44,575 nucleotides of DNA. Origin: a virus. Below the pieces are notes generated by a model that ran no database searches, was not told where the DNA came from, and saw nothing but the letters and a program-made list of their open reading frames with translations. Shown here one piece after another: positions 3,188 through 43,171 of this stretch. Each line of letters opens with the position of its first letter. Within the stretch, counting starts at the first letter, position 1. The DNA lies in IMG/VR virus record IMGVR_UViG_3300030106_000940, positions 1 through 44,575 of that record. One strand, 5' to 3'. A program made the translations under genes and the position numbers.

Positions 3188-5314
3188 ATGGTAGATAATA
3201 CATTTGAAGACGCATCCGTTTTATCATTAGATGAAAAAGAAAATGATCGTGAACTATCATCTTTAGTTGCTTTTATTGAAGATCGATATAAGAGATCAAA
3301 AGATTGGCGAAGGTTTGATGAAGAAAGATGGTTACAGTCCTATCGTAACTATAGAGGTTTGTATGGCGCAGATGTACAATTTACTGAAGCAGAACGATCC
3401 AGAGTTTTTATTAAGGTTACTAAGACAAAAGTATTAGCAGCTTATGGGCAGATTACGGATGTACTCTTTGCAAGACAAAAGTTTCCATTAACAATTGATC
3501 CAACAACTCTTCCAGAAGGAGTCACGGAATCTGTCCATTTCGATATGAACCCCCAAGCGCAGGGAACAGAAGAGGAACAACCAAGTCCATACGGCTTTCC
3601 TGGCGATGGTCAAGACTTGGAGCTTGGGGCAACTAGAGAAACTTTAGAAGACAAGAAATTAAAACTTGGTCCCTTAGAAGCTAAACTTTCTGAGATTGAA
3701 GGATTGCAAGAAGGTGAAGGTTTGACTCCTTCTGCTATGACTTTCCATCCAGCAATGGTTGCAGCAAAGAAGATGGAAAAGAAGATCATGGACCAGCTAG
3801 AGGAATCTGGGGCGAGTAAGCACCTACGTTCGTCAGCTTTTGAGTGTGCATTGTTTGGTACTGGTATTATTAAAGGACCATTTGCTGTAGATAAAGAATA
3901 TGCAAATTGGGATGATACTGGTTCCTATAACCCTACAATTAAAACTGTACCTCAAGTAAGCCATGTTTCTTGCTGGGACTTTTATCCTGATCCTGATGCA
4001 AGCAATATGGACGATGCAACATACGTCATTGAACGCCATAAGTATTCAGTATCTCAGTTACGAGACTTAAAGAATAGACCATTTTTCCGTGGTGAAGCCA
4101 TTGATAATTGTATCAATATGGGAAAAGTCTACACGAGTGAGTATTGGGAAGATGATCTCAAGGATTACTCCTTAGTTGACCACCCTGAACGGTATCAAGT
4201 TTTAGAGTATTGGGGAACAATCGAAACAAGTCTTGCTGAAGAGTTTGGTATTGATCTACCAAAAGAATTTAAGAATGTAGATCAGATTCAGGTCAACTGC
4301 TGGATTTGCAATAACTTTATTTTGCGCTTGGTCGTAAATCCATTTAAGCCTGCTCGTATTCCATACTACGCTGTTCCATATGAACTCAATCCATATAGTT
4401 TCTTTGGCATTGGTTTGGCAGAGAACATGGATGATACACAGACGTTGATGAATGGCTTTATGAGAATGGCTGTTGATAATGCTGTGCTCAGTGGCAATCT
4501 ACTCATTGAAGTGGATGAAACCAATCTAGTGCCGGGACAAGACTTACAAGTGTATCCGGGCAAGGTGTTTCGGCGTCAAGGTGGCGCACCGGGACAGGCG
4601 ATCTTTGGAACTAAGTTTCCAAACGTCAGTAATGAAAATATGCAATTGTTTGACAAGGCTCGACAGCTTTCTGATGAAGCTACGGGCCTTCCTAGTTTTG
4701 CACACGGACAGACTGGTGTTGTGGGCACAGGAAGAACTGCAGCAGGTATCTCGATGCTTATGGGCGCTGCGGCAGGAAGTATTAAGACCGTAGTTAAAAA
4801 CTTTGATGATTATTTGCTACGACCATTAGGTGAAGCATTCTTTAGCTTTAACATGCAATTTGATTTTGACCCTGATATAAAAGGTGACTTAGAGGTTAAA
4901 GCTAGGGGAACGGAAAGTTTGATGGCAAACGAAGTGCGAAGCCAGCGACTATTGCAATTCTTGCAAGTTGTCGCTAATCCTGCTCTTGCACCCTTTGCTA
5001 AATTTACATCTATTATTCGAGAGATTGCAAACTCGATGGGACTTGATCCAGATAAGGTTTGTAATACTCCAGAAGAAGCTGCTCGCCAGGCTAAAATTTT
5101 ACAGCAACAGCAGCCACAAACCCCCGCTGGACAACAGCCACCACAGGCTCCTGGGTTAAGCCCAAATGACATGCAAGGAGGCGGAGGTGGTACAATTGGT
5201 GTAGGCGGCGCACCAACACCTATGGAGGGACAGTTTAGTGGAACCGTACAAGAACCTACTCAGCAAGCTCAAGACCCTGGTCAACAACAAGCGCCAATGG
5301 GACGCATTCAATAA
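3188..5314 (+). CDS. Portal protein
   Basis: Large podovirus-type portal (708 residues), the dodecameric ring at the head vertex through which DNA enters and leaves. The N-terminus has the typical charged helical opening (DRYKRSKDWRRFDEERW...YRNYRGLYG) followed by a long acidic insertion. Central segments such as SCWDFYPDPDASNMDDATYVIERH and the later GIGLAENMDDTQTLMNGFMRM are patterns I associate with marine podophage portals. The last roughly 70 residues are rich in Gln, Pro and Gly and probably unstructured. The position directly after TerL supports the call. The 3' end overlaps the next small gene by 77 bases in another frame. Confidence 0.88.
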   Translation: MVDNTFEDASVLSLDEKENDRELSSLVAFIEDRYKRSKDWRRFDEERWLQSYRNYRGLYGADVQFTEAERSRVFIKVTKTKVLAAYGQITDVLFARQKFPLTIDPTTLPEGVTESVHFDMNPQAQGTEEEQPSPYGFPGDGQDLELGATRETLEDKKLKLGPLEAKLSEIEGLQEGEGLTPSAMTFHPAMVAAKKMEKKIMDQLEESGASKHLRSSAFECALFGTGIIKGPFAVDKEYANWDDTGSYNPTIKTVPQVSHVSCWDFYPDPDASNMDDATYVIERHKYSVSQLRDLKNRPFFRGEAIDNCINMGKVYTSEYWEDDLKDYSLVDHPERYQVLEYWGTIETSLAEEFGIDLPKEFKNVDQIQVNCWICNNFILRLVVNPFKPARIPYYAVPYELNPYSFFGIGLAENMDDTQTLMNGFMRMAVDNAVLSGNLLIEVDETNLVPGQDLQVYPGKVFRRQGGAPGQAIFGTKFPNVSNENMQLFDKARQLSDEATGLPSFAHGQTGVVGTGRTAAGISMLMGAAAGSIKTVVKNFDDYLLRPLGEAFFSFNMQFDFDPDIKGDLEVKARGTESLMANEVRSQRLLQFLQVVANPALAPFAKFTSIIREIANSMGLDPDKVCNTPEEAARQAKILQQQQPQTPAGQQPPQAPGLSPNDMQGGGGGTIGVGGAPTPMEGQFSGTVQEPTQQAQDPGQQQAPMGRIQ

Positions 5315-5456: not shown

Positions 5457-8154
5457 CCAAGAACCATTTGTCGGAACACGAGCTTTAGCTGAATATAAGA
5501 GGGAATTTCCAGATGCAGAATTAACTCCAGCAATGGAACATATGATTGTATTGGAGGGATTTAGTAAAACAGAATATCTGGACACCAAAGATAAGCGTAC
5601 TATTGGTGTAGGGCTAACAGGGGAGTATTTTCCTAAACCGGACGAAACTCTACATGACGCTTTTATGCGAGCATATGCCGATAAAGAAGCTACAGCACGA
5701 GATTTATTTCCAGAATACAATGATTTTAGTCCTGAATTACAAACACAAATTATGAGTGGTGTGTATCGTGGAGATTTTAAACAGGGATATAACACAGTAG
5801 ACGCCATTAAGCGAGGAGATTTTACTGAAGCTGGAAGGCAATTTTTGTTAAATCCTACAGGTAATGACTTTAGTAAAGACTACAAAGAAGCACGGAGAAC
5901 TGGGTCTGGAGTAAAACGTAGATTAGAAGCAATACGAGACGCACTTCTTGCAGAAGGTCGATTAATCGAGATGCCTGAGTTTGCTGAAGAACAGCCATCT
6001 TCTTCTGGACAAGCTTCTCAAGCGGAACCAACTAGAGATTCTTTTGCTACAGCCGAAGCAACTGCAGATCAAATGGAGAGATTACGCAAAGAAAAAATAG
6101 CACAGGATTTAATTAAAGACGAAGTAGGCTTACGAAATAATTTAACACCAGAAGAAAAAAAGCTTATTAGCACAAACCAACGATTTGCTTTTGATGAGCG
6201 TGGAGTATCTAGATTACAAAAAGGGGGAACACCTATGGCATCGGAACAAGAAAACGATGAAATGATACAGATTGGTCTTGTACAAGATCCAAATGATACT
6301 GATCCAGTCAGCGGCAATGAAATTCCATTAGGTGCTACTGCTGAAGGAGTACGAGACGATGAAGTTGCAGCGATTAGCCCAGGGGAATTTGTGGTTCCTC
6401 AGTACGCTGTTAATTATCATGGTTTAGATTTTTATATGGACTCGTTAAATACAGCAAAACAAGGGCTACGACAAATGGACCGAATGGGCATGACAGGTCG
6501 CCCAGATGAAGCTACGTTGCCTGATGACATGGCATTGCCTACAATGGAAGAGGAAACTACTCCTATTTTAGATAGGCCCATAGATACAGAAATGTTTATG
6601 CGTGGAGGCTTGCAAACTCCAGTACACTCTTTTGCAAATGGCGGACTTGTGCAATATCAAACTGGTGGTACGTATACAACTCCTACAGGTTTAAATGTAC
6701 CGACGCCAACAGTTGCTACTCCAACTGTGCAGACGCCAACAGCAGCCCCAGGCGCTCAAGTAGCAGCCGCCCCTCAACAGCCAGGTCAAATGTTTTATTC
6801 GCCAATGCCTGCTACTCCTATGCCAATGCAGATGCCAGCGGTTCCGCAAGTTCAACCCGGTGCGCCTACTATATCGTACCCTGACTATCAAGGAATAACA
6901 GGTGGTCAGTTCGGGGGATATAAACTTCAAGAGTATAAACATAAAGATACTGGCAATAGTATTTTTCTTACACTAGTTGGCGGAAAGTTGCCCCCTGGTG
7001 TAACTGTTCCACCTGGATATATTCCGGTAGAAGAATACAATCAACAGCAGGAACAAGAACCTGCTACACCTACTACACCTACTGCACCGACAATTGATCG
7101 TGGTGGGCCACCCACTGCTTTTGATTTAGAGATGGAACAACAGCAGTTTGAAGAAGAGCAAGCAGGTCAAGTACAAGAAAAAATAGACGCACGGAAAGCA
7201 GCTATTGGTAATGCACTTGCGAGGGCGGGAACGGTACCAGCCGCAGCACAAGATGCTATTGAGGGAGCAGATTTAGATATATATTCCGTAGATCCAAAAC
7301 ATGGAATGTTTATTGATGGTAAATTTGTAACAGATGCGAGAGTTTTACAGCAATACGCAGATTCTACAAGGCGTGCTATTTATACTGAAGATCATCCTTT
7401 AGGTAGGTTTGGGGCGGCTGTAGGTAAGTATATAGAAGGAACTACAGCTTTTAATGCTGCACAAGCAGTAGCACGGGCAGGCAAAGATCTATTGGATGGT
7501 GTTTTTGGTACACTCACGAGTAAACCAACGGCTGCTCAGTTAACAAGGTTAGCTAATGAGGCTAGGGCAGGCGAGAGGGCGGATTACGAGGCAATGCTAA
7601 ACGACTTAGCGGTACGGGCAGCAGAAGAAGAAGAAGCAGCAGCAGCAGACGCAGGAACAACATCAGCAGAAACCCCTGGTAGTGCTGGTACTGGTGTTCC
7701 TTATCAGGGCGACTTTCAAGGGGTAGCAGGCTCTGAGAGAGGGGTAGCAGGCTCTGAGAGAGGGGTTGATGGGGTGCCTTATACGGGCGACTTTCAAGGG
7801 ACTGCAGCTAGAACAGGACAAGCACAAGCAGCAGCCGCTAGTGCAACACGAGCACAAGCACAAGCAGGACGGGATGCAGCAGATACAGCCTCTCAAATAA
7901 ACCCTGCATCAGCACGTGCTCGACGTGCCGATGCAGAGGAAAGAGCTAGGAATCAAGCTGCAGCTATGGCAGAGGAAGCTGCAAAAGAACGAGAGGCTAA
8001 CCGAAGGGATCAAGCAGAGGCCCAACAACGAGCGGTTGATAGAGCACGAGACGCAGCAGATGCGGCAGAGACTCCCTTTGTTCCCTATGCTGCTGGTGGC
8101 TTAGTAAAGAAAAAGAATAAACGACGAAATGGCAAGGGACTAGCCAGACGTTAA
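5449..8154 (+). CDS. Virion protein with N-terminal GH24 (T4-type) lysozyme domain
   Basis: This is a 901-residue fusion. Residues about 20-170 match a T4-lysozyme-like muramidase: Glu36, Asp45 and Thr51 in LEGFSKTEYLDTKDKRTIGVG reproduce the E-8-D-5-T spacing of the T4 catalytic triad, and a GVKRRLEAIRDAL helix ends the domain. Downstream is a segment with VAAISPGEFVVPQYAV and YHGLDFYMDSLNTAKQGL, a pattern recurring in marine phage structural proteins. Then come Pro/Thr/Gln-rich and Ala/Arg-rich coiled-coil regions and a basic tail. The likely role is a virion-borne peptidoglycan hydrolase used during DNA entry, possibly also in lysis, because no separate endolysin is visible in this window. 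It lies between portal and scaffold. A short tandem repeat sits near residues 751-784. Confidence 0.75.
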   Translation: MADQEPFVGTRALAEYKREFPDAELTPAMEHMIVLEGFSKTEYLDTKDKRTIGVGLTGEYFPKPDETLHDAFMRAYADKEATARDLFPEYNDFSPELQTQIMSGVYRGDFKQGYNTVDAIKRGDFTEAGRQFLLNPTGNDFSKDYKEARRTGSGVKRRLEAIRDALLAEGRLIEMPEFAEEQPSSSGQASQAEPTRDSFATAEATADQMERLRKEKIAQDLIKDEVGLRNNLTPEEKKLISTNQRFAFDERGVSRLQKGGTPMASEQENDEMIQIGLVQDPNDTDPVSGNEIPLGATAEGVRDDEVAAISPGEFVVPQYAVNYHGLDFYMDSLNTAKQGLRQMDRMGMTGRPDEATLPDDMALPTMEEETTPILDRPIDTEMFMRGGLQTPVHSFANGGLVQYQTGGTYTTPTGLNVPTPTVATPTVQTPTAAPGAQVAAAPQQPGQMFYSPMPATPMPMQMPAVPQVQPGAPTISYPDYQGITGGQFGGYKLQEYKHKDTGNSIFLTLVGGKLPPGVTVPPGYIPVEEYNQQQEQEPATPTTPTAPTIDRGGPPTAFDLEMEQQQFEEEQAGQVQEKIDARKAAIGNALARAGTVPAAAQDAIEGADLDIYSVDPKHGMFIDGKFVTDARVLQQYADSTRRAIYTEDHPLGRFGAAVGKYIEGTTAFNAAQAVARAGKDLLDGVFGTLTSKPTAAQLTRLANEARAGERADYEAMLNDLAVRAAEEEEAAAADAGTTSAETPGSAGTGVPYQGDFQGVAGSERGVAGSERGVDGVPYTGDFQGTAARTGQAQAAAASATRAQAQAGRDAADTASQINPASARARRADAEERARNQAAAMAEEAAKEREANRRDQAEAQQRAVDRARDAADAAETPFVPYAAGGLVKKKNKRRNGKGLARR
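7699..7800 (+). repeat. Nested direct repeats inside the 901-residue virion protein gene
   Basis: Two exact 21-base tandem copies lie at 7721-7741 and 7742-7762 and encode VAGSERG twice. They are bracketed by a 24-base repeat at 7699-7722 and 7777-7800 that differs at two positions and encodes PY[QT]GDFQG. The repeats stay in frame, so they lengthen a low-complexity linker. They look like a recent slippage or duplication event. Confidence 0.85.
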
Positions 8155-8222
8155 TAGTCTCATTGTTGGCTTACCTAACCCCCCGCATTGGCTACGGATA
8201 GCCCCAACATTGGAGAGAAAAC

Positions 8223-9380: not shown

Positions 9381-10454
9381 ATGGCTTTTAAACGTGCTGC
9401 AGGGTATAACAACTTACCTAATGGTAATTTTAGCCCTGTAATTTACTCTAAGCAGGTCCAGCTTGCGTTCCGCAAGGGTTCTGTTGCAGAGGATATTACC
9501 AATAATGATTATTTTGGTGATATTGCAAACTTTGGTGATACTGTCCGTATTATCAAGGAGCCTGAGATCACGGTCAAGTCTTATGCCCGTGGTACTCAAA
9601 TCTCGCCACAAGACCTCGATGATGAAGATTTTCAGCTTGTCGTTGACCAAGCTAATTACTTCGCATTTAAGGTTGATGACATCGAAGAAGCACATTCACA
9701 TGTGAACTTTCAGAACGTAGCGTCTGATCGTGCAGGCTACCGCCTTAAGGATCAGTATGACGCAGAAGTTCTAGGCTACCTCTCTGGTTTTGCTCAGGCT
9801 TCTATCAGCGCAGTTGCCAGTACCGCTAATACTACGGTTTCTGGTACCAAGGCTGTTTCGACTGCTGGTTCCGACGAACTGCTTTCTTCCATGCAGCTTA
9901 AGAAGGGTGACTTTGGTAACATTACCACCTCTTCGGCAGGCACGCACTCTATTCCCGTTACGGCTCGTTTGCCGGGGGCAAGTGCGCTTCCTACAGCTAC
10001 TGCATCACCTAATATGGTTGTGGCAAGAATGGCTCGACTCTTGGACACGCAGTTTGTGGACAAGGATAATCGGTGGCTCGTTATTTCACCACACTTTATG
10101 GAAGTGCTGATGGATGAGGACTCCCGACTTCTCAACCAGGACTTTGGCGAGGCCGGTGGCCTTCGCAATGGTCTTGCACTAAATAATCTTTACGGCTTTA
10201 GGGTTTATGTTTCTAACAACCTTCCTGCTGTTGGCACTGGTCCAGGTACCTCTGGTACTGCGAATCAGAACTCCAACTATGGTGTGATTGTTGGTGGACA
10301 TAATTCTGCTATTGCAACCGCAAGCCAGATCACTAAGACGGAAACGTATCGTGATCCTGATAGCTTTGCTGACATCGTGCGTGGTATGCACCTTTATGGT
10401 CGTAAGATTCTACGACCTGAAGCAATTGCCACAGCGAAATACAATATAGCATAG
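9381..10454 (+). CDS. Major capsid protein
   Basis: The 357-residue coat protein forms the head shell, presumably with an HK97-type fold. The N-terminal half has the pattern FGDTVRIIKEPEITVKSYARG followed by a hydrophobic/acidic strand (QLVVDQANYFAFKVDDIEEA), which I associate with P22/T7-class phage coat proteins. Later come RWLVISPHFMEVLMDEDSR and a C-terminal strand FADIVRGMHLYGRKILRPEA. The gene has its own promoter, a structured leader and a strong Shine-Dalgarno site (AAGGAG, nine bases from ATG), as expected for the most abundant virion protein. Base composition is somewhat richer in C than in its neighbours, consistent with high expression. The next gene follows after a 13-base gap with AGGAGG. 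Confidence 0.85.
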   Translation: MAFKRAAGYNNLPNGNFSPVIYSKQVQLAFRKGSVAEDITNNDYFGDIANFGDTVRIIKEPEITVKSYARGTQISPQDLDDEDFQLVVDQANYFAFKVDDIEEAHSHVNFQNVASDRAGYRLKDQYDAEVLGYLSGFAQASISAVASTANTTVSGTKAVSTAGSDELLSSMQLKKGDFGNITTSSAGTHSIPVTARLPGASALPTATASPNMVVARMARLLDTQFVDKDNRWLVISPHFMEVLMDEDSRLLNQDFGEAGGLRNGLALNNLYGFRVYVSNNLPAVGTGPGTSGTANQNSNYGVIVGGHNSAIATASQITKTETYRDPDSFADIVRGMHLYGRKILRPEAIATAKYNIA

Positions 10455-12308: not shown

Positions 12309-12319
12309 GAGGACATTTG

Positions 12320-12805
12320 ATGACTCTATTATCAGGGCTAATTCAACAAAATGTCGATAGGCATACAAGGGATCTTGTTACACTAACCGCAACTGCTTCT
12401 ATTACTACAGCAGATCATGCAGGTAGAACCCTCCTTATGGGAGAAGTTGGAGGAGACGCTGCTGCTACCTTTACTCTGCCTGCTGCAACCGGCACAGGTA
12501 GTGTATTTAAATTTGTTGTTTCTGTTGTAAATACCTCAAATTATTTAATTAAAGTGGCTGACGCCACAGACACCATAGACGGTCAGATTGTAATTACTGA
12601 TGCAGATGGGACGGATGCTGGTTCAATGGTAACGGCTGCTGCTTCGGATACAATTACACTTAATGGCACGACAACTGGTGGAGGAGCTATAGGTGATTAT
12701 GTTGAGTTAATTGACATAGCATCTAATCAATATACCGTAAGCGGTATGGTGACATGTGCTGCAGGTTCTAATATTGCAACCATGTTTAGTGCTACTGTTT
12801 CTTAG
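12320..12805 (+). CDS. Structural protein, copy 1 of a duplicated pair
   Basis: This 161-residue Ala/Thr/Gly-rich beta protein shares a long segment with the gene at 13036: RDLVTLTATA, ADHAGR.LLMGEVGGDAA, ATFTLPAATG and VSVVNTSNY.IKVADATDTI, followed by DTITLNGTTTGG and LIDIASNQY. The shared part covers about residues 17-160, so the two genes are paralogues. A TTG lies one codon upstream, but ATG 12320 has the better spacing (seven bases) from GGAGG at 12308-12312, so I chose it. The function is not known; the domain looks like a virion surface or tail-fibre-type beta domain. A palindrome and the pqqA-like gene follow. Confidence 0.7.
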   Translation: MTLLSGLIQQNVDRHTRDLVTLTATASITTADHAGRTLLMGEVGGDAAATFTLPAATGTGSVFKFVVSVVNTSNYLIKVADATDTIDGQIVITDADGTDAGSMVTAAASDTITLNGTTTGGGAIGDYVELIDIASNQYTVSGMVTCAAGSNIATMFSATVS

Positions 12806-12812
12806 TAGCGTA

Positions 12813-12827
12813 TTAAGTTTAACTTAA
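12813..12827. promoter_or_regulatory. Perfect 15-base palindrome just upstream of the pqqA-like gene
   Basis: TTAAGTT-T-AACTTAA is an exact inverted repeat with seven-base arms. It ends three bases before the Shine-Dalgarno site of the PqqA-like gene. The one-base centre is too tight for the full RNA stem (six pairs with a three-base loop are possible), so a DNA operator is as likely as an RNA hairpin. No clear -35/-10 pair was found around it. Confidence 0.5.
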
Positions 12828-12843
12828 AGAAAGGAGTAGTACT

Positions 12844-12921
12844 ATGTCTTGGAATGCACCAAAGATTACCGAAGTTTGTGTCGGTATGGAAATTAATTGC
12901 TACGCTTGTGCAGAACTTTAA
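12844..12921 (+). CDS. pqqA: PqqA-like coenzyme PQQ precursor peptide
   Basis: This 25-codon gene encodes a peptide with all the visible hallmarks of PqqA: a start of MSWNAPK, a central EVCVGMEIN, and Glu16 and Tyr20 with exactly three residues between them (E-I-N-C-Y). In known PqqA these two residues are cross-linked by the radical-SAM enzyme PqqE with PqqD and become pyrroloquinoline quinone. From memory it is closest to alphaproteobacterial peptides such as that of Gluconobacter (MAWNTPK..., GAEINSYVCG), which share the WN.PK start and a Cys two residues after the Tyr. Cys12, Cys19 and Cys22 are noteworthy. The Shine-Dalgarno AAGGAG (12831-12836, seven bases from ATG) is ideal. No pqqB-E gene is seen here, so host enzymes would be needed. 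The gene lies between two paralogous virion genes, like a moron. Confidence 0.8.
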   Translation: MSWNAPKITEVCVGMEINCYACAEL

Positions 12922-12962
12922 TTACTGCGAATCGTAGTTTCTAACAATTAACTATATGGAGA

Positions 12963-13001
12963 AGGGGTATATGGCACACTTACTATGTGTCATATATCCC
13001 T
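12963..13001 (+). terminator. Strong hairpin after the pqqA-like gene (terminator-like, no U-tract)
   Basis: The arms AGGGGTATATG (12963-12973) and CATATATCCCT (12991-13001) pair over 11 bp with one G-U. A further four pairs (ACAC/GTGT) follow after a two-base bulge, closing a seven-base loop. It is the strongest hairpin in this gap. The following bases (CCCATTTATAATTT) are AT-rich but not a U-run, so it may be a weak terminator or an mRNA 3'-end stabiliser. The 114-base gap holds nothing else I can support. Confidence 0.55.
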
Positions 13002-13035
13002 CCCATTTATAATTTAGCTAAGAAAGGAATAGATA

Positions 13036-13620
13036 ATGGCTAGTTTTAAAATGACACAAGGGATTTCTCGTGTTCCTGAAGATGTCTTTGTTGAAGATGG
13101 CATGACAGTCACTTCAGGCGGTCTAACCGTAACGGCTGGTGGCCTAACGGTTACTGCGGGTACTACTACTCTTGGAGGATCATTTATCCGGGATTTGGTT
13201 ACGCTAACTGCAACCGCAACACTGACAAATGCCGATCATGCAGGACGGATTCTGCTAATGGGCGAAGTTGGTGGTGATGCAGCGGCTACCTTTACGCTTC
13301 CTGCTGCAACGGGTTCTGGTGCAGAATTTCAATTTATTGTCTCAGTTGTTAATACATCCAACTATGTAATTAAGGTTGCTGATGCTACTGATACGATTGA
13401 CGGTTCTGTTACTCTTCATCAAGATAGTGCCACTACAGTGGCTACGTTTAATACTGCCTCTGATTCGGATACCATTACGTTGAACGGTACTACGACAGGT
13501 GGTGTTTCTATTGGTGATGAAATTACTCTTATTGATATTGCTTCTAACCAGTATATGGTTAAGGGTATCCTAACTGCGAGTGGAACGGAAGCTACTCCAT
13601 TTAGTGCCAGCGTTTCTTAA
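13036..13620 (+). CDS. Structural protein, copy 2 of the duplicated pair
   Basis: This 194-residue paralogue of the gene at 12320 has an added N-terminus. Residues 1-50 include the repeats GGLTVTAGGLTVTAG and a short strand typical of fibre-like beta structures, and from RDLVTLTATA onward the protein follows the other copy almost residue by residue, including MGEVGGDAAATFTLPAATG and NTSNYVIKVADATDTIDG. The DNA of the shared part differs at many synonymous sites, so the duplication is old or the codons were driven apart. It has a Shine-Dalgarno site (AAAGGAA). It may be a virion surface or tail protein; the function is not known. Confidence 0.7.
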   Translation: MASFKMTQGISRVPEDVFVEDGMTVTSGGLTVTAGGLTVTAGTTTLGGSFIRDLVTLTATATLTNADHAGRILLMGEVGGDAAATFTLPAATGSGAEFQFIVSVVNTSNYVIKVADATDTIDGSVTLHQDSATTVATFNTASDSDTITLNGTTTGGVSIGDEITLIDIASNQYMVKGILTASGTEATPFSASVS

Positions 13621-31165: not shown

Positions 31166-33109
31166 TTACTGAGTGGCTGCTATTGGTGTAGGAAAATCTA
31201 CAATCTCACAACTATTCGCTGTGCAAGCAAATTCTTGTGAGCCAGTTGTTCTATCCTCCTGTTCGTAAGTGGCAAACAATTCCCAGTGTACTTCCTTTGG
31301 CATTGAAAGTAAAGCCTCATGCCATTTTGCTTTTGATACATCCTGGTAAGGAGCTTGCTTATAGATGTGCTCAGTCATTGGTAGAAAACTAATGCCAGAC
31401 ATTGAATCAAAGTTTTCGTAGACAAAGTTTGCAATCTGCAACCATTCATTTTCTTTGACACTGATGGTGATAGAGGGCTTATGCTCACACCAATTGTCTG
31501 CGTATATTTTCCACAGATTTAGATGCTCTAGTGCAGTAATGTCTTTGCGAGTTATTGCCCCTTCGGGAGCAGCGATAGGAAAAGAAAAGACTACGGTGCT
31601 ACCAGGCTTTTCTACTGCATCCTCATGGGGAAATCCTTGGTCAATTAAAAACTGGGTCAGTGGGTCTTTCTTATCGGCACGAATGGTCCGAATGTAGTAT
31701 TGATTGTGGCGAGGGTGTATGCCACTAGAAGCATCTACAAGTTGGCTGACGGTACCTGAAGGCTTAACACAAGTGATAGCAGCGGACGGCTCAATGTCCA
31801 GTTTCTTTGCCCATTCCTCATTGACCGCAACGGCATGTAGTCGTAGCTCAGTTAATATAGCTGCAAGATCATCGTCCGTCTTATTGGACATTAGCTCGTT
31901 GTCCATAATGCCGGTTAGGCTAACCCCCAGTAGACGTTCTTCTTCTGTGTTTCTACGCCAATGCCGACTCAATCCCTTGAAGTCAGTAAAGCAAGACTGA
32001 ATCGTACCTAAGATAGTGGCAAACTCAATCTTCTTTTTCAGAGTATCAATGGTGTCAGACGCACGAACGACTACCTCACTGAGATTACAAAACTGCTTTG
32101 GGCGTAGAATGATTTCACTACACGGGTTAGTTCCATAATCAATGTGTGGATCTCTGCGATCATAGCGAGCCGCTTGAGCTTGTGCAGACTTACGGTTAAA
32201 GATACCCCGTTCTCCAGACTTACTATCGTACAGAGCTAGAAACTCCCGCATAAATGTTCCAATGTCAGGCTTCTCAGTGAAGCAGACACTATTGTTAGCG
32301 AGCGCTCGTTGCGGCTCTGTCTCCCACCAGGAACCAGACTTTGCATGACGCATACGATCATCCGATAGATTAGACAAACTAATGAGTGCGCTTCTACGCA
32401 CACCACCTACCACCACTACATCAGCTACTTTGCAGATAATATCGTGGCACTCTATCGAGCATAGCTTACGACCGGCAGCCTTTCTAAATGCATTGACAGT
32501 AAATACAAATAGCTCATGTAGTGGGTCAGGTCCAGAAGCCCTGCCACCAAATGTATTTAACTTGGCTCCTGCTGGACGTACCCGTGACATATCCCATTGA
32601 GGGACCATTCCAGCGTACAATAGGTTAATCAGTTCCTTGTAGCTCTTGTACCAGCCTTCTTTACTATCTTGAACAATGATTGTGGTTTCACTCTCTTCAA
32701 AAATATCAGGTATCTTAGGGAGTTCATTTGTGTACTGGCGTTCCACGCTAAAGCCTACACCTGTACCGTGCATCAGAATATAAAGGCATTCATCGAAAGC
32801 TCTGGGGCTGTCAATCGGAAGATAGGCACAATTGTAAGCAGCTATGTGATTGCGTTCCAGTGCGGGGCCAGCCGTCATCATTGCTCGCATACTAGGCATA
32901 ACATTTAATGTGCGAATAGCCGTATACAACTCAGGATAGACTTCCGGGCTAATGGACACACCATGCTTCTCTGTAATAAACTTCTGATAGAAGCTCAACA
33001 GGCGATCAGCCGTTTCATCCCAAGTTTCACGTCGTCCTTCTTCATCCAGCCATCTAGCGTATCGAGATACCGCTATAATATTCTGATAGTCACTCATTTG
33101 TTCACTCAT
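31166..33109 (-). CDS. nrdJ: Adenosylcobalamin-dependent (class II) ribonucleotide reductase
   Basis: This 647-residue monomeric class II enzyme makes deoxynucleotides from ribonucleotides using a B12-generated thiyl radical. Active-site residues are visible: Cys94 (AAYNCAYLP) and Cys341 (FCNLSEV) as the redox pair, Cys330 in NPCSEI as the radical cysteine and Glu332 beside it. The 11-residue gap between Cys330 and Cys341 equals that of the Lactobacillus triphosphate reductase. The C-terminal CTANSC (about 629-634) is the regenerating pair. Start ATG 33109 has GGAGGA eight bases upstream. Class II RNR is common in marine phages and requires host adenosylcobalamin. It pairs with ThyX to supply dNTPs for phage replication. 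Confidence 0.93.
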   Translation of the reverse strand: MSEQMSDYQNIIAVSRYARWLDEEGRRETWDETADRLLSFYQKFITEKHGVSISPEVYPELYTAIRTLNVMPSMRAMMTAGPALERNHIAAYNCAYLPIDSPRAFDECLYILMHGTGVGFSVERQYTNELPKIPDIFEESETTIIVQDSKEGWYKSYKELINLLYAGMVPQWDMSRVRPAGAKLNTFGGRASGPDPLHELFVFTVNAFRKAAGRKLCSIECHDIICKVADVVVVGGVRRSALISLSNLSDDRMRHAKSGSWWETEPQRALANNSVCFTEKPDIGTFMREFLALYDSKSGERGIFNRKSAQAQAARYDRRDPHIDYGTNPCSEIILRPKQFCNLSEVVVRASDTIDTLKKKIEFATILGTIQSCFTDFKGLSRHWRRNTEEERLLGVSLTGIMDNELMSNKTDDDLAAILTELRLHAVAVNEEWAKKLDIEPSAAITCVKPSGTVSQLVDASSGIHPRHNQYYIRTIRADKKDPLTQFLIDQGFPHEDAVEKPGSTVVFSFPIAAPEGAITRKDITALEHLNLWKIYADNWCEHKPSITISVKENEWLQIANFVYENFDSMSGISFLPMTEHIYKQAPYQDVSKAKWHEALLSMPKEVHWELFATYEQEDRTTGSQEFACTANSCEIVDFPTPIAATQ

Positions 33110-34040: not shown

Positions 34041-34495
34041 ACTCGGTCCTCACTTTCTAAGTTTGCTTCGATCAATGTAGGCGGCATAGAAATTAATGTT
34101 TCCCTAAGCCATTTTTGTGGAATAACTCTATCACAATATACTATACCGTGTTTCTTACACCATGTCGCATACGAAGTGGCCGACCCTTTTCTCAGTTTTC
34201 TACTGCTATTTTCAAAGACCAATCTAATATCCAAGTCAGGATGTTGGTGCTTAATCTCTAAATGTTTACGCCGGTCTGCTGTAGAAAAGAAACCCTTAAC
34301 CTCTATGATTAAACCATTGTCTAGTACAAAGTCTGGTGTGTAAGAGCGAATGGCAAAATCAATCCACTTAATCTTGATCGTCTCGTACCGTAGGGCGTGT
34401 TTAGCTTTTGTAATTTGTTTAGCTATAACAGTTTCCAGGTTTGAGCGATACCCCTTTTTTCTAGCCCTACGATATGCTTTTGAGTCATATCGCAT
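34037..34495 (-). CDS. T7 endonuclease I-like Holliday junction resolvase
   Basis: This 152-residue enzyme is of the T7 gp3 type. It cuts branched DNA and, in T7, also host DNA. The catalytic residues sit almost exactly at T7 positions: Glu21 (NLETVIA), Asp55 (YTPDFVL), Glu65 and Lys67 (IIEVKG). The later DIRLVFEN, then LRKGSATSYATWCKKHGI and IPQKWL also match. The protein probably acts as a dimer through the N-terminal helix. It works with the nearby polymerase, exonuclease and PD-(D/E)XK protein in recombination, concatemer processing or host DNA breakdown. Confidence 0.93.
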   Translation of the reverse strand: MRYDSKAYRRARKKGYRSNLETVIAKQITKAKHALRYETIKIKWIDFAIRSYTPDFVLDNGLIIEVKGFFSTADRRKHLEIKHQHPDLDIRLVFENSSRKLRKGSATSYATWCKKHGIVYCDRVIPQKWLRETLISMPPTLIEANLESEDRV

Positions 34496-34497
34496 AT

Positions 34498-34926
34498 TTA
34501 AATATCGAGTAAGGTAGCATGTTCAACAGGAATGTGAAAAAACTCCTCACCTTTCGGTACATAGCGGTTGGATACTTCCTTGACCGTGGCAATGGTAGAT
34601 AAAGTTGTCGCTGGAATTTTCCATACTTGTTTACAATCTGCCCTTAGAACATAGAAGGTAAGGTTGCTATTGCCCAATAACTTCTTCTTTCGATACGGTA
34701 TTCTAATTTCCAGCCAGTCACGAGGCCAATCGTACTTCCATGAGAATTTTATTTCCACTTCAGCGTTGTGTATTTCACCATCTTTTTCTGTGATAATATC
34801 ACATCTGTACTTTTCTTGTGTGGAAGTGATCGTGTGACCGTCTTCAATTAACAAAGCACTAATAACTTCCTTCGCCTTGGTATCTGATAGATCGTATAAC
34901 GTCTGGTCAAATCTTTTCTTTACCAT
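34498..34926 (-). CDS. PD-(D/E)XK nuclease-like protein
   Basis: This 142-residue protein starts at ATG 34926, with GGAGGG about 11 bases upstream; a GTG at 34938 overlaps that site and is less likely. Residues Asp43 (YRCDIITE) and Glu58-x-Lys60 (AEVEIKFSW) give the D...ExK pattern of restriction-endonuclease-like nucleases, followed by strands typical of the fold. No further motif names the family. It lies between an intrinsic terminator and the endonuclease I gene. It may cut or bind DNA; the call is structural inference from a short motif. Confidence 0.55.
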   Translation of the reverse strand: MVKKRFDQTLYDLSDTKAKEVISALLIEDGHTITSTQEKYRCDIITEKDGEIHNAEVEIKFSWKYDWPRDWLEIRIPYRKKKLLGNSNLTFYVLRADCKQVWKIPATTLSTIATVKEVSNRYVPKGEEFFHIPVEHATLLDI

Positions 34927-34944
34927 GTACTTACCCACCCTCCT

Positions 34945-34978
34945 AAAAAGATAGGGGGCGAATAACCACCCCCTGTCT
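34945..34978 (-). terminator. Rho-independent terminator after the Cas4-like exonuclease gene
   Basis: In the minus direction the sequence is AGACAGGGGG, a ten-base loop, CCCCCTATCT and then a run of T. The arms lie at 34969-34978 and 34949-34958 with one G-U pair, and the U-tract at 34945-34949. It sits between the exonuclease stop (34993) and the next gene's ribosome site. It is the clearest intrinsic terminator in the window. Confidence 0.8.
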
Positions 34979-34992
34979 CAGTGAACTATGTG

Positions 34993-35832
34993 CTACTTGT
35001 CGATGTAAAATACAACAGGCTTATCCTTAGCCCGACTTACCCGTGAAGGCTCTTCACTCAACTTCTCACCCCAGCAGGCATACTTAAAATCGCAGAATTT
35101 GCATTCTGTATCCAGTATGTAGTTGCCTGTGTGTACGCCACGAAACATTTCTTTGATAGGCTTAAAGCATCGAGCAAAGGCATTGTCTTTTAGCTTGGTT
35201 ACAGTATTCGCTAGTTTAGTCGTTACCTCCTTTGGGTCACTTGCGTATGCTATATACTTAAACTCGCCACTGGAATGGTTGATTACCCACCAGCCTCCGG
35301 GTTCTACACCCTTTGCCTGAGCGTAGGTTTGCAATTGTCCAACATAACCAAAACTATCATGCTTTTCAATGTGCTTTCCATCAAGCCATTTGTTGCGGTA
35401 ACTCCAGGGAGAAGCAGATTTAATATCATCAACTTTATTGTCGAGTATTAAATCATACTCCCCTGAAATAACTTCACCACCGATCTCTGTCTCGACTTTC
35501 TCAGGCTCTTCAAATTTGGCTCCTGCCTCTTTCAATAAACCCTTAAAGACGGCCTCTGTAATATCCCCAATCATCATTCGCAATAGAAAATGCGATGCTG
35601 GAGGAGTTGCAGCTTCAGGCTTGTTCTTCTGAAACCACAGTTGACAGAGGGATCGGCCAATATTGCTTGCTCGTAATTTAAAGTCTCTCGTGTTCTTGGT
35701 CTGGAACTGTCGTCGTACTGCCGCCTCTACATGTTTGACAATACCTTTGATCGTATCGTCTGACATGCCTGCTTTGCCCTTTCGCACGTCTGAAAGGTAG
35801 GCATGAACGAGGAGTTCTGCACGATGCTCCAT
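34993..35832 (-). CDS. Cas4/RecB-like exonuclease with Fe-S cysteines
   Basis: This 279-residue PD-(D/E)XK exonuclease is of the Cas4 type. Asp127 (GEYDLIL) and Asp136-x-Lys138 (VDDIKSAS) form the core, with the downstream GQLQTYAQA motif (Gln166) typical of RecB/Cas4 nucleases. Cys63 (SLCQLWF) and C-terminal Cys244, Cys247 and Cys253 (ECKFCDFKYACWG) are placed like the four ligands of the [4Fe-4S] cluster in Cas4 and AddB. Its job is likely strand resection for recombination or end processing. It is the last gene before the terminator and follows the SSB-like gene by six bases. Its Fe-S need fits the phage-encoded IscU. Confidence 0.85.
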   Translation of the reverse strand: MEHRAELLVHAYLSDVRKGKAGMSDDTIKGIVKHVEAAVRRQFQTKNTRDFKLRASNIGRSLCQLWFQKNKPEAATPPASHFLLRMMIGDITEAVFKGLLKEAGAKFEEPEKVETEIGGEVISGEYDLILDNKVDDIKSASPWSYRNKWLDGKHIEKHDSFGYVGQLQTYAQAKGVEPGGWWVINHSSGEFKYIAYASDPKEVTTKLANTVTKLKDNAFARCFKPIKEMFRGVHTGNYILDTECKFCDFKYACWGEKLSEEPSRVSRAKDKPVVFYIDK

Positions 35833-40107: not shown

Positions 40108-40914
40108 TCAATTAGGTTCAGTAAATTCAGCAATCTTGTCCCTCATAAGTACCATATCATTCTTTCGTCTATATTTCAAGTCATCCTCTAATCTAGCAGC
40201 AAAGACCTTGTTCTGTGTGTGGCCTCTGGATAGTAACTGGCCTCGTAGTTCCTGAGTAATTTCTAACGTCTTTTTGGCAGCGTCAGGATCAAGAGCTACA
40301 ATTACCGCTGTATAGCCCTGTAGTTGCTCTACATGGCTTGGAAGTAAAGAGGTACCCAGGAGGGCCATTCCTGTGCAATTGGCGTCTGTTGACCCTGCTA
40401 CGGCCGCTGAGATGGCATCCTCGACGACAACTGCAACTGTCCCTTCTCCGTAGGTATATGCATAGCCAGATGAGCCATATCTCTTCCACTTTGGTAGCCT
40501 CTCAGGTGAGGTGGATCTACCTGTCGCATCTACAATCTCTCCACCATGATAGATGGGAAATACAATGCGAGATTCTGTGAGGTCATAGTAAATATCCCTC
40601 TCTGAAATTGGGTAGTCATAGATACTCAGCCATTCTCTAATTTGCGAATGTCCCATAACGACATGTCGGGGTAGTGCAAACGGTTCTTGGCTCTCGTGAG
40701 TGCTAGAACGAACATGGCCGGACAGGTCACTTACTCGTATGCTACTTGTCTTGCGTCCTGAGAACTTACATCCAGCCTTGTAGCAGTTGAAAAGAGTGCC
40801 TTCAATGGTTCGAGTAACAGTAAACGTGTTATCTCCACCGCAAGCAGGGCAATCTCCTCTGTGATGGCCTCCAATCTTTAAGTCAAGCTGTAAAATTCTA
40901 TCCGCTACGTTCAT
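40108..40914 (-). CDS. TOPRIM DNA primase, T7 gp4-like
   Basis: This 268-residue primase makes RNA primers for lagging-strand synthesis. The zinc ribbon is Cys22/Cys25 (DCPACGGDN) and Cys44/Cys49 (NCYKAGCKF). The TOPRIM core shows Glu165 (VVVEDAISAAVAG) and Asp209-x-Asp211 (VALDPDAAKK), the metal-binding residues. This equals the primase half of T7 gp4, here separated from the helicase. The ATG overlaps the integrase stop (ATGA) and has GGAG five to six bases upstream, so the two genes are translationally coupled. Confidence 0.93.
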   Translation of the reverse strand: MNVADRILQLDLKIGGHHRGDCPACGGDNTFTVTRTIEGTLFNCYKAGCKFSGRKTSSIRVSDLSGHVRSSTHESQEPFALPRHVVMGHSQIREWLSIYDYPISERDIYYDLTESRIVFPIYHGGEIVDATGRSTSPERLPKWKRYGSSGYAYTYGEGTVAVVVEDAISAAVAGSTDANCTGMALLGTSLLPSHVEQLQGYTAVIVALDPDAAKKTLEITQELRGQLLSRGHTQNKVFAARLEDDLKYRRKNDMVLMRDKIAEFTEPN

Positions 40915-41852
40915 TTTGACTCCTTAACCAGTGAAATAGGGTCAAAGTTTCGCTTTGCTGCTGCATTTCTAGCTTGATTGGTGTTGATGAGGATGTAGGG
41001 AGCTAAACTTTCTCTATTTTTGTGCCCACTGTAAGACATAATCTCTGTCTCGGTACAACCTCTATCGGCAAGATCACTCAACACCGTGCGCCGAATGTCT
41101 CGCAATTGCAATTCTCTTGGTAAGTTCGTTGCGTTCATAATTTGTCGAAACACTCTGGCTATATTGTTTTCACTGTAGGGTTTAAGCCTAATTGGATGTG
41201 GTACAACCCAATCTTGAAATGAATAGTCTTGTTTTTGCTCCTCCAACATTTGCACAAGATCATCGGATATAGGTATTCCGGCAATTCTCTCTTTGGTCTT
41301 TTGAATTACCTCTCGTGTATACAATTTTTCCTTTAGATCATAGTTGATCCAGGTAGACAAGCGAATATCCTCAACACGTTGCCCCAGTTCCACATTAATT
41401 CGCACTAGCAAGCCAATATTACGCCATTTGGGTACACTAAATGCCGTTGTTAGAAATTCTCCAAACTGTTCTAGTGTCCAAACTTTGTTTCGGGGTGCGT
41501 CTTTAGCTCGCTCGACAAACTGCCAGGGATTTCTGCCCTCTAGCATATCGTACTTGAGCAAGACATTCCAGGCTCGCACTATAATTTGCAAAGTGTAATT
41601 AGCAAAGCGTATGCCGTCGCCGGACTGCACACTTTCTAGTATCTTCCAATAAATTTCTTGGCACTTGGCTACTGTTAGCTTGGCAAGCGGTACGTCTCCA
41701 ACGTATCCATCGTCAATTTTTAGTTCGCATACTCTATTCTGTTGGTAAACGTATTGTTGTCTTGTTTTCTGGCTTGTGATTTTTTTCTGAAACTCAGGCG
41801 TCGTTTGATACAGTTCAAATGCGCCGCTTATAGTTTCGCTTGGCAGTTTCAT
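40911..41852 (-). CDS. int: Tyrosine recombinase/integrase
   Basis: This 313-residue phage integrase has an N-terminal SAM-like core-binding domain at about 60-120 and a catalytic domain from about 125. Visible catalytic residues are Arg159 (ELGQRVEDIRL), Lys185 or 187 (VIQKTKERI), Arg254 in RDIRRT, His277 (SGHKNRES) and Tyr286 (APYILI). The usual His before the second Arg is Arg251 here, as in several phage integrases with RDxRRT. No excisionase, repressor or att site was recognised nearby. Its position inside the replication operon, coupled to primase, is unusual for a lysogeny gene. Start ATG 41852 has AAAGGAA upstream. Confidence 0.9.
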   Translation of the reverse strand: MKLPSETISGAFELYQTTPEFQKKITSQKTRQQYVYQQNRVCELKIDDGYVGDVPLAKLTVAKCQEIYWKILESVQSGDGIRFANYTLQIIVRAWNVLLKYDMLEGRNPWQFVERAKDAPRNKVWTLEQFGEFLTTAFSVPKWRNIGLLVRINVELGQRVEDIRLSTWINYDLKEKLYTREVIQKTKERIAGIPISDDLVQMLEEQKQDYSFQDWVVPHPIRLKPYSENNIARVFRQIMNATNLPRELQLRDIRRTVLSDLADRGCTETEIMSYSGHKNRESLAPYILINTNQARNAAAKRNFDPISLVKESK

Positions 41853-42913: not shown

Positions 42914-43171
42914 TTAATTTAGATAGTACCTCAATAGACCAGCAAAATAAATTAAACCTACGCAAAAATTTAAGAGTATTAAACTTCTATCTAACCAAAG
43001 TATTCCTACCATAAACCAAAACACTCCACCCGAAGTAGACAATATTAAGTTAAGAGGAAACAACTCTAACGAAGTACAAGCTGCGCCCGTTAGAATACAT
43101 ATTGTGCCAGCCCATTTCAGATACCAACTAAGGCCAGTTGACGGAGTAACTTTAGTTCGTCGTTTGAACAT
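42914..43171 (-). CDS. Small multi-pass membrane protein (DUF6552-like)
   Basis: This small protein has three hydrophobic segments: [39 protein letters not shown] and [17 protein letters not shown]. The layout matches a small membrane family I recall from marine phages (DUF6552, unchecked). An ATG at 43252 would add 27 residues but overlaps the upstream gene by 101 bases and has no ribosome site. ATG 43171 overlaps it by 20 bases, also with a weak site, so the start is uncertain. The function is unknown; membrane stress or superinfection roles would be guesses. Confidence 0.6.

Follow-up and report, generated by a model that had tools for sequence, protein, structure and literature searches.

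The redox cofactor PQQ is derived in bacteria from a peptide precursor, PqqA, which is bound by PqqD, cross-linked by PqqE between a Glu and a Tyr residue, and then trimmed and oxidised. In cells, pqqBCDE are usually found beside pqqA, but this arrangement does not define the family. Phage-encoded PqqA was described from Lake Baikal by Coutinho and colleagues in 2020, who found the peptide in a phage predicted to infect Methylophilaceae that also encodes methanol dehydrogenase, and who proposed that methanol oxidation is enhanced (PMC7678222); pqqA is also among the viral genes named in one reservoir study (PMC13188868). Phage PqqA is therefore already known in kind, which corrects an earlier note on the DNA studied here, whose author was not aware of an established phage function. 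The locus that we describe lies in a 44,575-base virus record, referred to throughout as the window. It resembles the Lake Baikal phage VP_266 in that a phage-encoded PqqA is proposed to support PQQ-dependent alcohol oxidation. VP_266 is T4-like, has predicted Methylophilaceae hosts, and its representative also encodes methanol dehydrogenase (PMC7678222), whereas the window phage is HMO-2011-like, encodes an alphaproteobacterial-type peptide, and yielded no PQQ enzyme. In the literature searched, which covered few subscription papers, we found neither the substrate-only form of the gene in an HMO-2011-like phage, nor its prevalence, nor its presence in cultured phages; what appears to be new is the substrate-only pqqA of this lineage, together with how common such genes are and how far they have been overlooked.

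The gene occupies positions 12844–12921 on the plus strand, where a reading frame that starts with ATG and stops with TAA encodes the 25-residue PQQ precursor peptide MSWNAPKITEVCVGMEINCYACAEL. The earlier note had placed a 25-codon gene here with Trp3, Pro6, Gly14, Glu16 and Tyr20, and both the coordinates and the residues are exact. When the PqqA models that it recommended are applied, the peptide scores 31.7 bits (E 1.5e-7) against Pfam PF08042, for which the gathering cut-off is 21.1 bits, and 40.9 bits (E 1.2e-10) against the NCBIfam equivalog TIGR02107, for which the cut-off is 20 bits and the whole model (1–21) is covered. It is the sole PqqA match within the record, and none is seen in 14 control genomes. 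In the window the motif W-x2-P-x7-G-x-E-x3-Y appears a single time, and a set of 300 Markov-resampled windows with matching dinucleotide content yields it just once. Since both models are matched above their cut-offs and the motif is rare in the resampled windows, the frame is a real gene and not a chance ORF.

In addition to passing both cut-offs, the phage peptide shares with the PqqA family its length, the W-x2-P leader, with Trp3 and Pro6 in register, and the G-x-E-x3-Y core, in which Gly14 precedes Glu16 and Tyr20 and three residues separate Glu from Tyr. Glu16 and Tyr20 are the pair that would be expected to be cross-linked. Unlike the family, the peptide has Cys at positions 12, 19 and 22, of which Cys19 and Cys22 are also seen in cellular relatives of the EINCYAC type, and it is phage-borne in a window without pqqBCDE. 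The rest of the pathway had been said to be absent from the window, and indeed no pqqBCDE are seen among the window proteins scanned. The missing neighbours do not bar membership in the family, because stand-alone cellular copies of pqqA exist (PMC9851590).

The major capsid protein (9381–10454, plus strand; phrog_267) assigns the phage to the HMO-2011 group, with 74.2% identity to that of roseophage CRP-1 and 70.6% to that of the SAR116 phage HMO-2011. The large terminase (73%) and the DNA polymerase (53%) also find their best matches in this group, and on the basis of these protein matches the window is classed as an HMO-2011-like phage, of marine type. CRP-1 and 42 other records of the group differ from the window in that they lack pqqA; when 45 HMO-2011-like records were scanned in full, PqqA was present in just two, G026 and the record of contig L005, and the gene is therefore dispensable in the group. 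G026, a related 47-kb record (locus L101), has about 4.8 kb between the homologues of the window genes at 43152 and 53. Most of that segment has no counterpart in the window, which shows that the window record is incomplete at its ends, and a further pqq gene may lie there. The PqqA of G026 is of a second type, MKWNTPKIAEIAVGMEINCYACAEL, and is encoded at a different site within the region that is missing from the window. As the G026 contig lacks the site of the window gene and the window lacks that of G026, one phage might carry both types.

Known hosts of the HMO-2011 group are SAR116, Roseobacter and Pelagibacter. Neither of two routes to a host prediction was productive, as the window contains no tRNA and the search for an att site returned one chance tRNA-like motif only. 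A tyrosine-type integrase, encoded at 40911–41852 amid the replication genes, points to a possibly temperate phage, though no attachment site was found. The window also encodes a B12-type ribonucleotide reductase (31166–33109) that is 55–59% identical to counterparts in several pqqA-bearing phage contigs of different lineages.

The Shine-Dalgarno site of pqqA had been called ideal, and AAAGGAG is found at 12830–12836 on the plus strand, 7 nt ahead of the ATG. Downstream of the gene, a hairpin spans 12956–13006 on the same strand, with a 15-bp core stem at 12964–13000 and an RNA fold of −33.3 kcal/mol (z −4.3); it is probably an RNA-end stabiliser or a terminator. A promoter scan of the region returned matches at chance level only. 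The Shine-Dalgarno site, pqqA and the hairpin together make up 230 nt (12806–13035) between two genes of the virion-gene block, both on the plus strand and without a PHROG match. The upstream gene (12317–12805) encodes a 162-residue protein of unknown function and the downstream gene (13036–13620) a 194-residue paralogue of it; these tandem paralogues are about 70% identical over about 145 residues. A relative of the two flanking proteins, with 41–45% identity, is encoded in another pqqA-bearing contig, L136.

Six more viral contigs (L005, L006, L007, L008, L009 and L012) carry the same pqqA at the same site, in the same gene context and with the same Shine-Dalgarno site. Of the differences between the window and L005 genes, three are synonymous and one alters a residue (Ala5 to Thr); the hairpin stem is preserved in L005 and L008 though its sequence has changed. 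In the sister phage L013, the major capsid protein is 100% identical and the gene order is the same, but pqqA is absent, and the gap between the two paralogues is 38 nt (8141–8178). The 38 nt of L013 against the 230 nt of the window identify the pqqA unit as a small insertable cassette. With phage genes on either side in seven contigs and an empty site in a sister phage, pqqA is a viral gene and not contamination.

The nearest cellular peptide found is MAWKTPKITEVSVGMEINCYACAEL, from an alphaproteobacterial genome (G521), which is identical to the window peptide at 20 of 23 positions and to that of L005 at 21 of 23. Its gene adjoins pqqB and pqqC. A second PqqA copy of this genome is identical at 21 of 23 positions to the G026 type and has neither pqqB nor pqqC in the stretch examined. 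Six of eight genomes of the order have PqqA, in one to three copies, and the same six have PqqE; each PqqA-bearing genome also gives 6–20 PQQ-dehydrogenase-like matches, which fall below the cut-off of that family. The earlier note had proposed checking that the host lineage carries pqq genes. This is borne out only indirectly, through the lineage of the nearest cellular PqqA and not through the inferred host of the phage itself. Among genomes of 1.6–2.5 Mb from the order of G008, six to twenty PQQ-dehydrogenase-like matches each were counted, a notable expansion.

In another order, that of G004, PqqA is present in 31 of 32 small genomes, mostly in 2–5 copies. The genomes of this order measure 0.9–2 Mb and have scattered pqqA genes, between one and five per genome, for most of which neither pqqB nor pqqC is seen in the 3 kb examined; this is an unusual multiplication in streamlined genomes. 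Some phage peptides (KITEISVGLEINSYACAEK) match the cellular PqqA type of this order, which suggests that phage PqqA is matched to the host. A PQQ-producing methylotroph has five copies of pqqA, three of them stand-alone (PMC9851590). Together with the multi-copy genomes, this shows that extra stand-alone copies are normal where the demand for PQQ is high. In a phylum-wide pattern search, one of 399 genomes had the Methylophilales-type peptide, in three copies, one of which is followed by pqqB-like and pqqC-like ORFs.

We searched IMG/VR with degenerate DNA patterns for PqqA and found at least about 200 contigs that carry it. Three pattern matches (L002, L004 and L010) were rejected as chance matches, and two contigs with a Methylobacterium-like PqqA (L003 and L011) were left out for their uncertain virus calls. 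By tblastn, no pqqBCDE are detected at the pqqA-bearing viral loci examined, and they are detected at 60 of the 118 cellular loci found with the PqqA pattern. PqqE does not exceed its cut-off in any of 50 whole viral records. These results show that pqqA is kept alone in phages. One of the 50 whole viral records has a PQQ alcohol dehydrogenase: like the Lake Baikal methylophages, the 72-kb viral contig L145 (record G038) has pqqA together with a full-length enzyme of this kind at 34049–35731 (608 bits). Among the matches listed, 133 pqqA loci fall into 20 gene-sharing groups, which is an upper bound on the number of lineages because many of the contigs are short.

The gene is also present in annotated phage genomes. 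With the Methylophilales-type peptide as query, we found that ten GenBank phage genomes encode pqqA, namely P19250A, Venkman, MEP301, MEP401, MEP402, four Melnitz variants and the Manatee Spring podovirus; a tblastn search of annotated phages with the window peptide gave one chance-level match. Nine of the ten records are methylophage isolates, whose hosts oxidise methanol. The earlier note had argued that the short length of the gene hides it from gene callers, and in none of the ten records is it annotated as PqqA: no feature covers it in P19250A, Venkman, MEP301, MEP401 and MEP402, and in the Melnitz and Manatee Spring records the match overlaps features labelled as hypothetical proteins, which lie on the opposite strand in Melnitz-1 and Manatee Spring. 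In Melnitz-1 (L343, MZ577095), pqqA at 3995–4066 has a good Shine-Dalgarno site and immediately precedes a tRNA-Leu gene; the opposite-strand hypothetical CDS masks it. The papers on two of the isolates do not mention PqqA. For OM43 strain H5P1, used with phages Venkman and Melnitz, the growth medium as published includes 1 nM PQQ (PMC9004378). P19250A, Venkman, MEP301, MEP401, MEP402 and Melnitz resemble the window in having a lone pqqA with a Shine-Dalgarno site and, over the stretches read, without annotated pqqBCDE. They differ from it in their Methylophilales-type peptide (M-W-T-x-P...GFEVTMYVMNK), in belonging to other phage families and in the genome position of the gene. A further candidate, the Acinetobacter 'phage' MD-2021a (L344, CAKLQF020000010), was rejected because it looks like a bacterial chromosome, with polyphosphate kinase (ppk) and pqqBCDE in the stretch read. 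Taken together, we lean towards the view that lone pqqA is a common and repeatedly acquired phage gene, by which unrelated phages of PQQ-using bacteria would supply only the precursor, in a host-matched type, and leave the host enzymes to finish PQQ.

The phage genes could encode a working substrate of the host enzymes or a peptide that merely resembles one. We recruited phage peptides by the leader sequence alone, which avoids circular evidence on Glu and Tyr. Among the matches listed, both residues are kept in 141 of 142 Methylophilales-type peptides, the exception ending at a contig edge, and in 23 of 23 alphaproteobacterial-type peptides. The search for the ORF and the Glu/Tyr pair in relatives, another check proposed earlier, thus finds both kept, in the six further contigs and in the leader-recruited peptides. 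Among 115 phage copies, pN/pS is 0.27 at codons outside the search pattern, a value from pairs that are not independent. A Shine-Dalgarno-like motif precedes 133 of 133 phage pqqA genes examined; for random ATGs in those contigs the rate is 10.5%. The 90 nt downstream fold with a mean z of −2.7 for phage pqqA, −0.6 for other ORFs in the same phages and −3.3 for cellular pqqA. Phage and cellular pqqA therefore have the same layout, since both show the Shine-Dalgarno site and the 3' hairpin. As judged from these comparisons, selection retains the substrate residues in phage pqqA.

We consider it probable that the phage pqqA is a functional, substrate-only auxiliary metabolic gene, which supplies PqqA to the PqqD and PqqE of the host and thereby keeps up PQQ-dependent alcohol oxidation. 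On infection, extra PqqA would be made from the phage gene, host PqqD and PqqE would bind it and join Glu16 to Tyr20, and a host peptidase, PqqB and PqqC would complete PQQ. Because one peptide is consumed per PQQ molecule, extra precursor can raise or sustain the supply. The cofactor would thus be sustained for periplasmic alcohol dehydrogenases, acting on methanol or other alcohols, as host transcription falls, and the oxidation would yield electrons and energy for phage production. Indeed, PqqA added to a Gluconobacter cell-free extract gave PQQ in 70–80% yield, as cited in PMC9851590. In Acetobacter, overexpression of pqqAB raised PQQ by 29% and that of the full operon eightfold, so the enzymes can also be limiting (PMC7936290). 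Also counting against this reading, the window pqqA sits among late virion genes, a late time for metabolic support, and most of the HMO-2011-like records examined lack it. The earlier note had offered both the substrate role and, as an alternative, a decoy that occupies PqqD and PqqE. Such a decoy would lower PQQ production, for example to halt periplasmic oxidation in the infected cell. An intact PqqD-recognised leader on a peptide made without the other enzymes would suit such a blocker. It would gain nothing from the two cross-linked residues, however, and every complete leader-recruited peptide keeps them, which favours a working substrate. In addition, one virus pairs pqqA with a PQQ dehydrogenase, and an extra lone pqqA is normal in PQQ-using cells (PMC9851590). 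The evidence thus supports the substrate half of that proposal, and the intact, constrained substrate residues make the decoy unlikely.

The patchy distribution, with 43 of 45 HMO-2011-like records and the sister phage L013 lacking pqqA, would also fit a host gene fragment that was acquired by chance and is useless to the phage, whether expressed or not. Such a passenger is hard to reconcile with the low pN/pS, with the single amino-acid change against three synonymous ones between the window and L005, with the invariable Shine-Dalgarno motif and a hairpin beyond background, or with the recurrence of pqqA in unrelated isolate types, and we regard it as improbable. Finally, the place of the window gene among virion genes, with a structural-type paralogue on either side, could point to a PqqA-derived peptide with another job, in the virion, in signalling or as substrate of another radical SAM enzyme. 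This position is not general, since other phages place pqqA in early or replication regions, and the sequences closely track the cellular PqqA types; a change of role is accordingly very unlikely.

If the substrate-only reading is right, these genes would form a class of auxiliary genes that supply a substrate only and that, at 23–27 codons, have been too short for annotation to pick up. They would also illustrate clearly how a phage can provide a consumed peptide substrate and not an enzyme. The idea is testable now, since pqqA is present in nine published records of phages whose hosts are in culture. In abundant aquatic bacteria, PQQ-dependent dehydrogenases drive the oxidation of methanol and other alcohols. 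Should phages routinely supply their hosts with the PQQ precursor, infection would have a direct effect on carbon turnover, along a route that has stayed nearly unnoticed because pqqA is too short for standard annotation.
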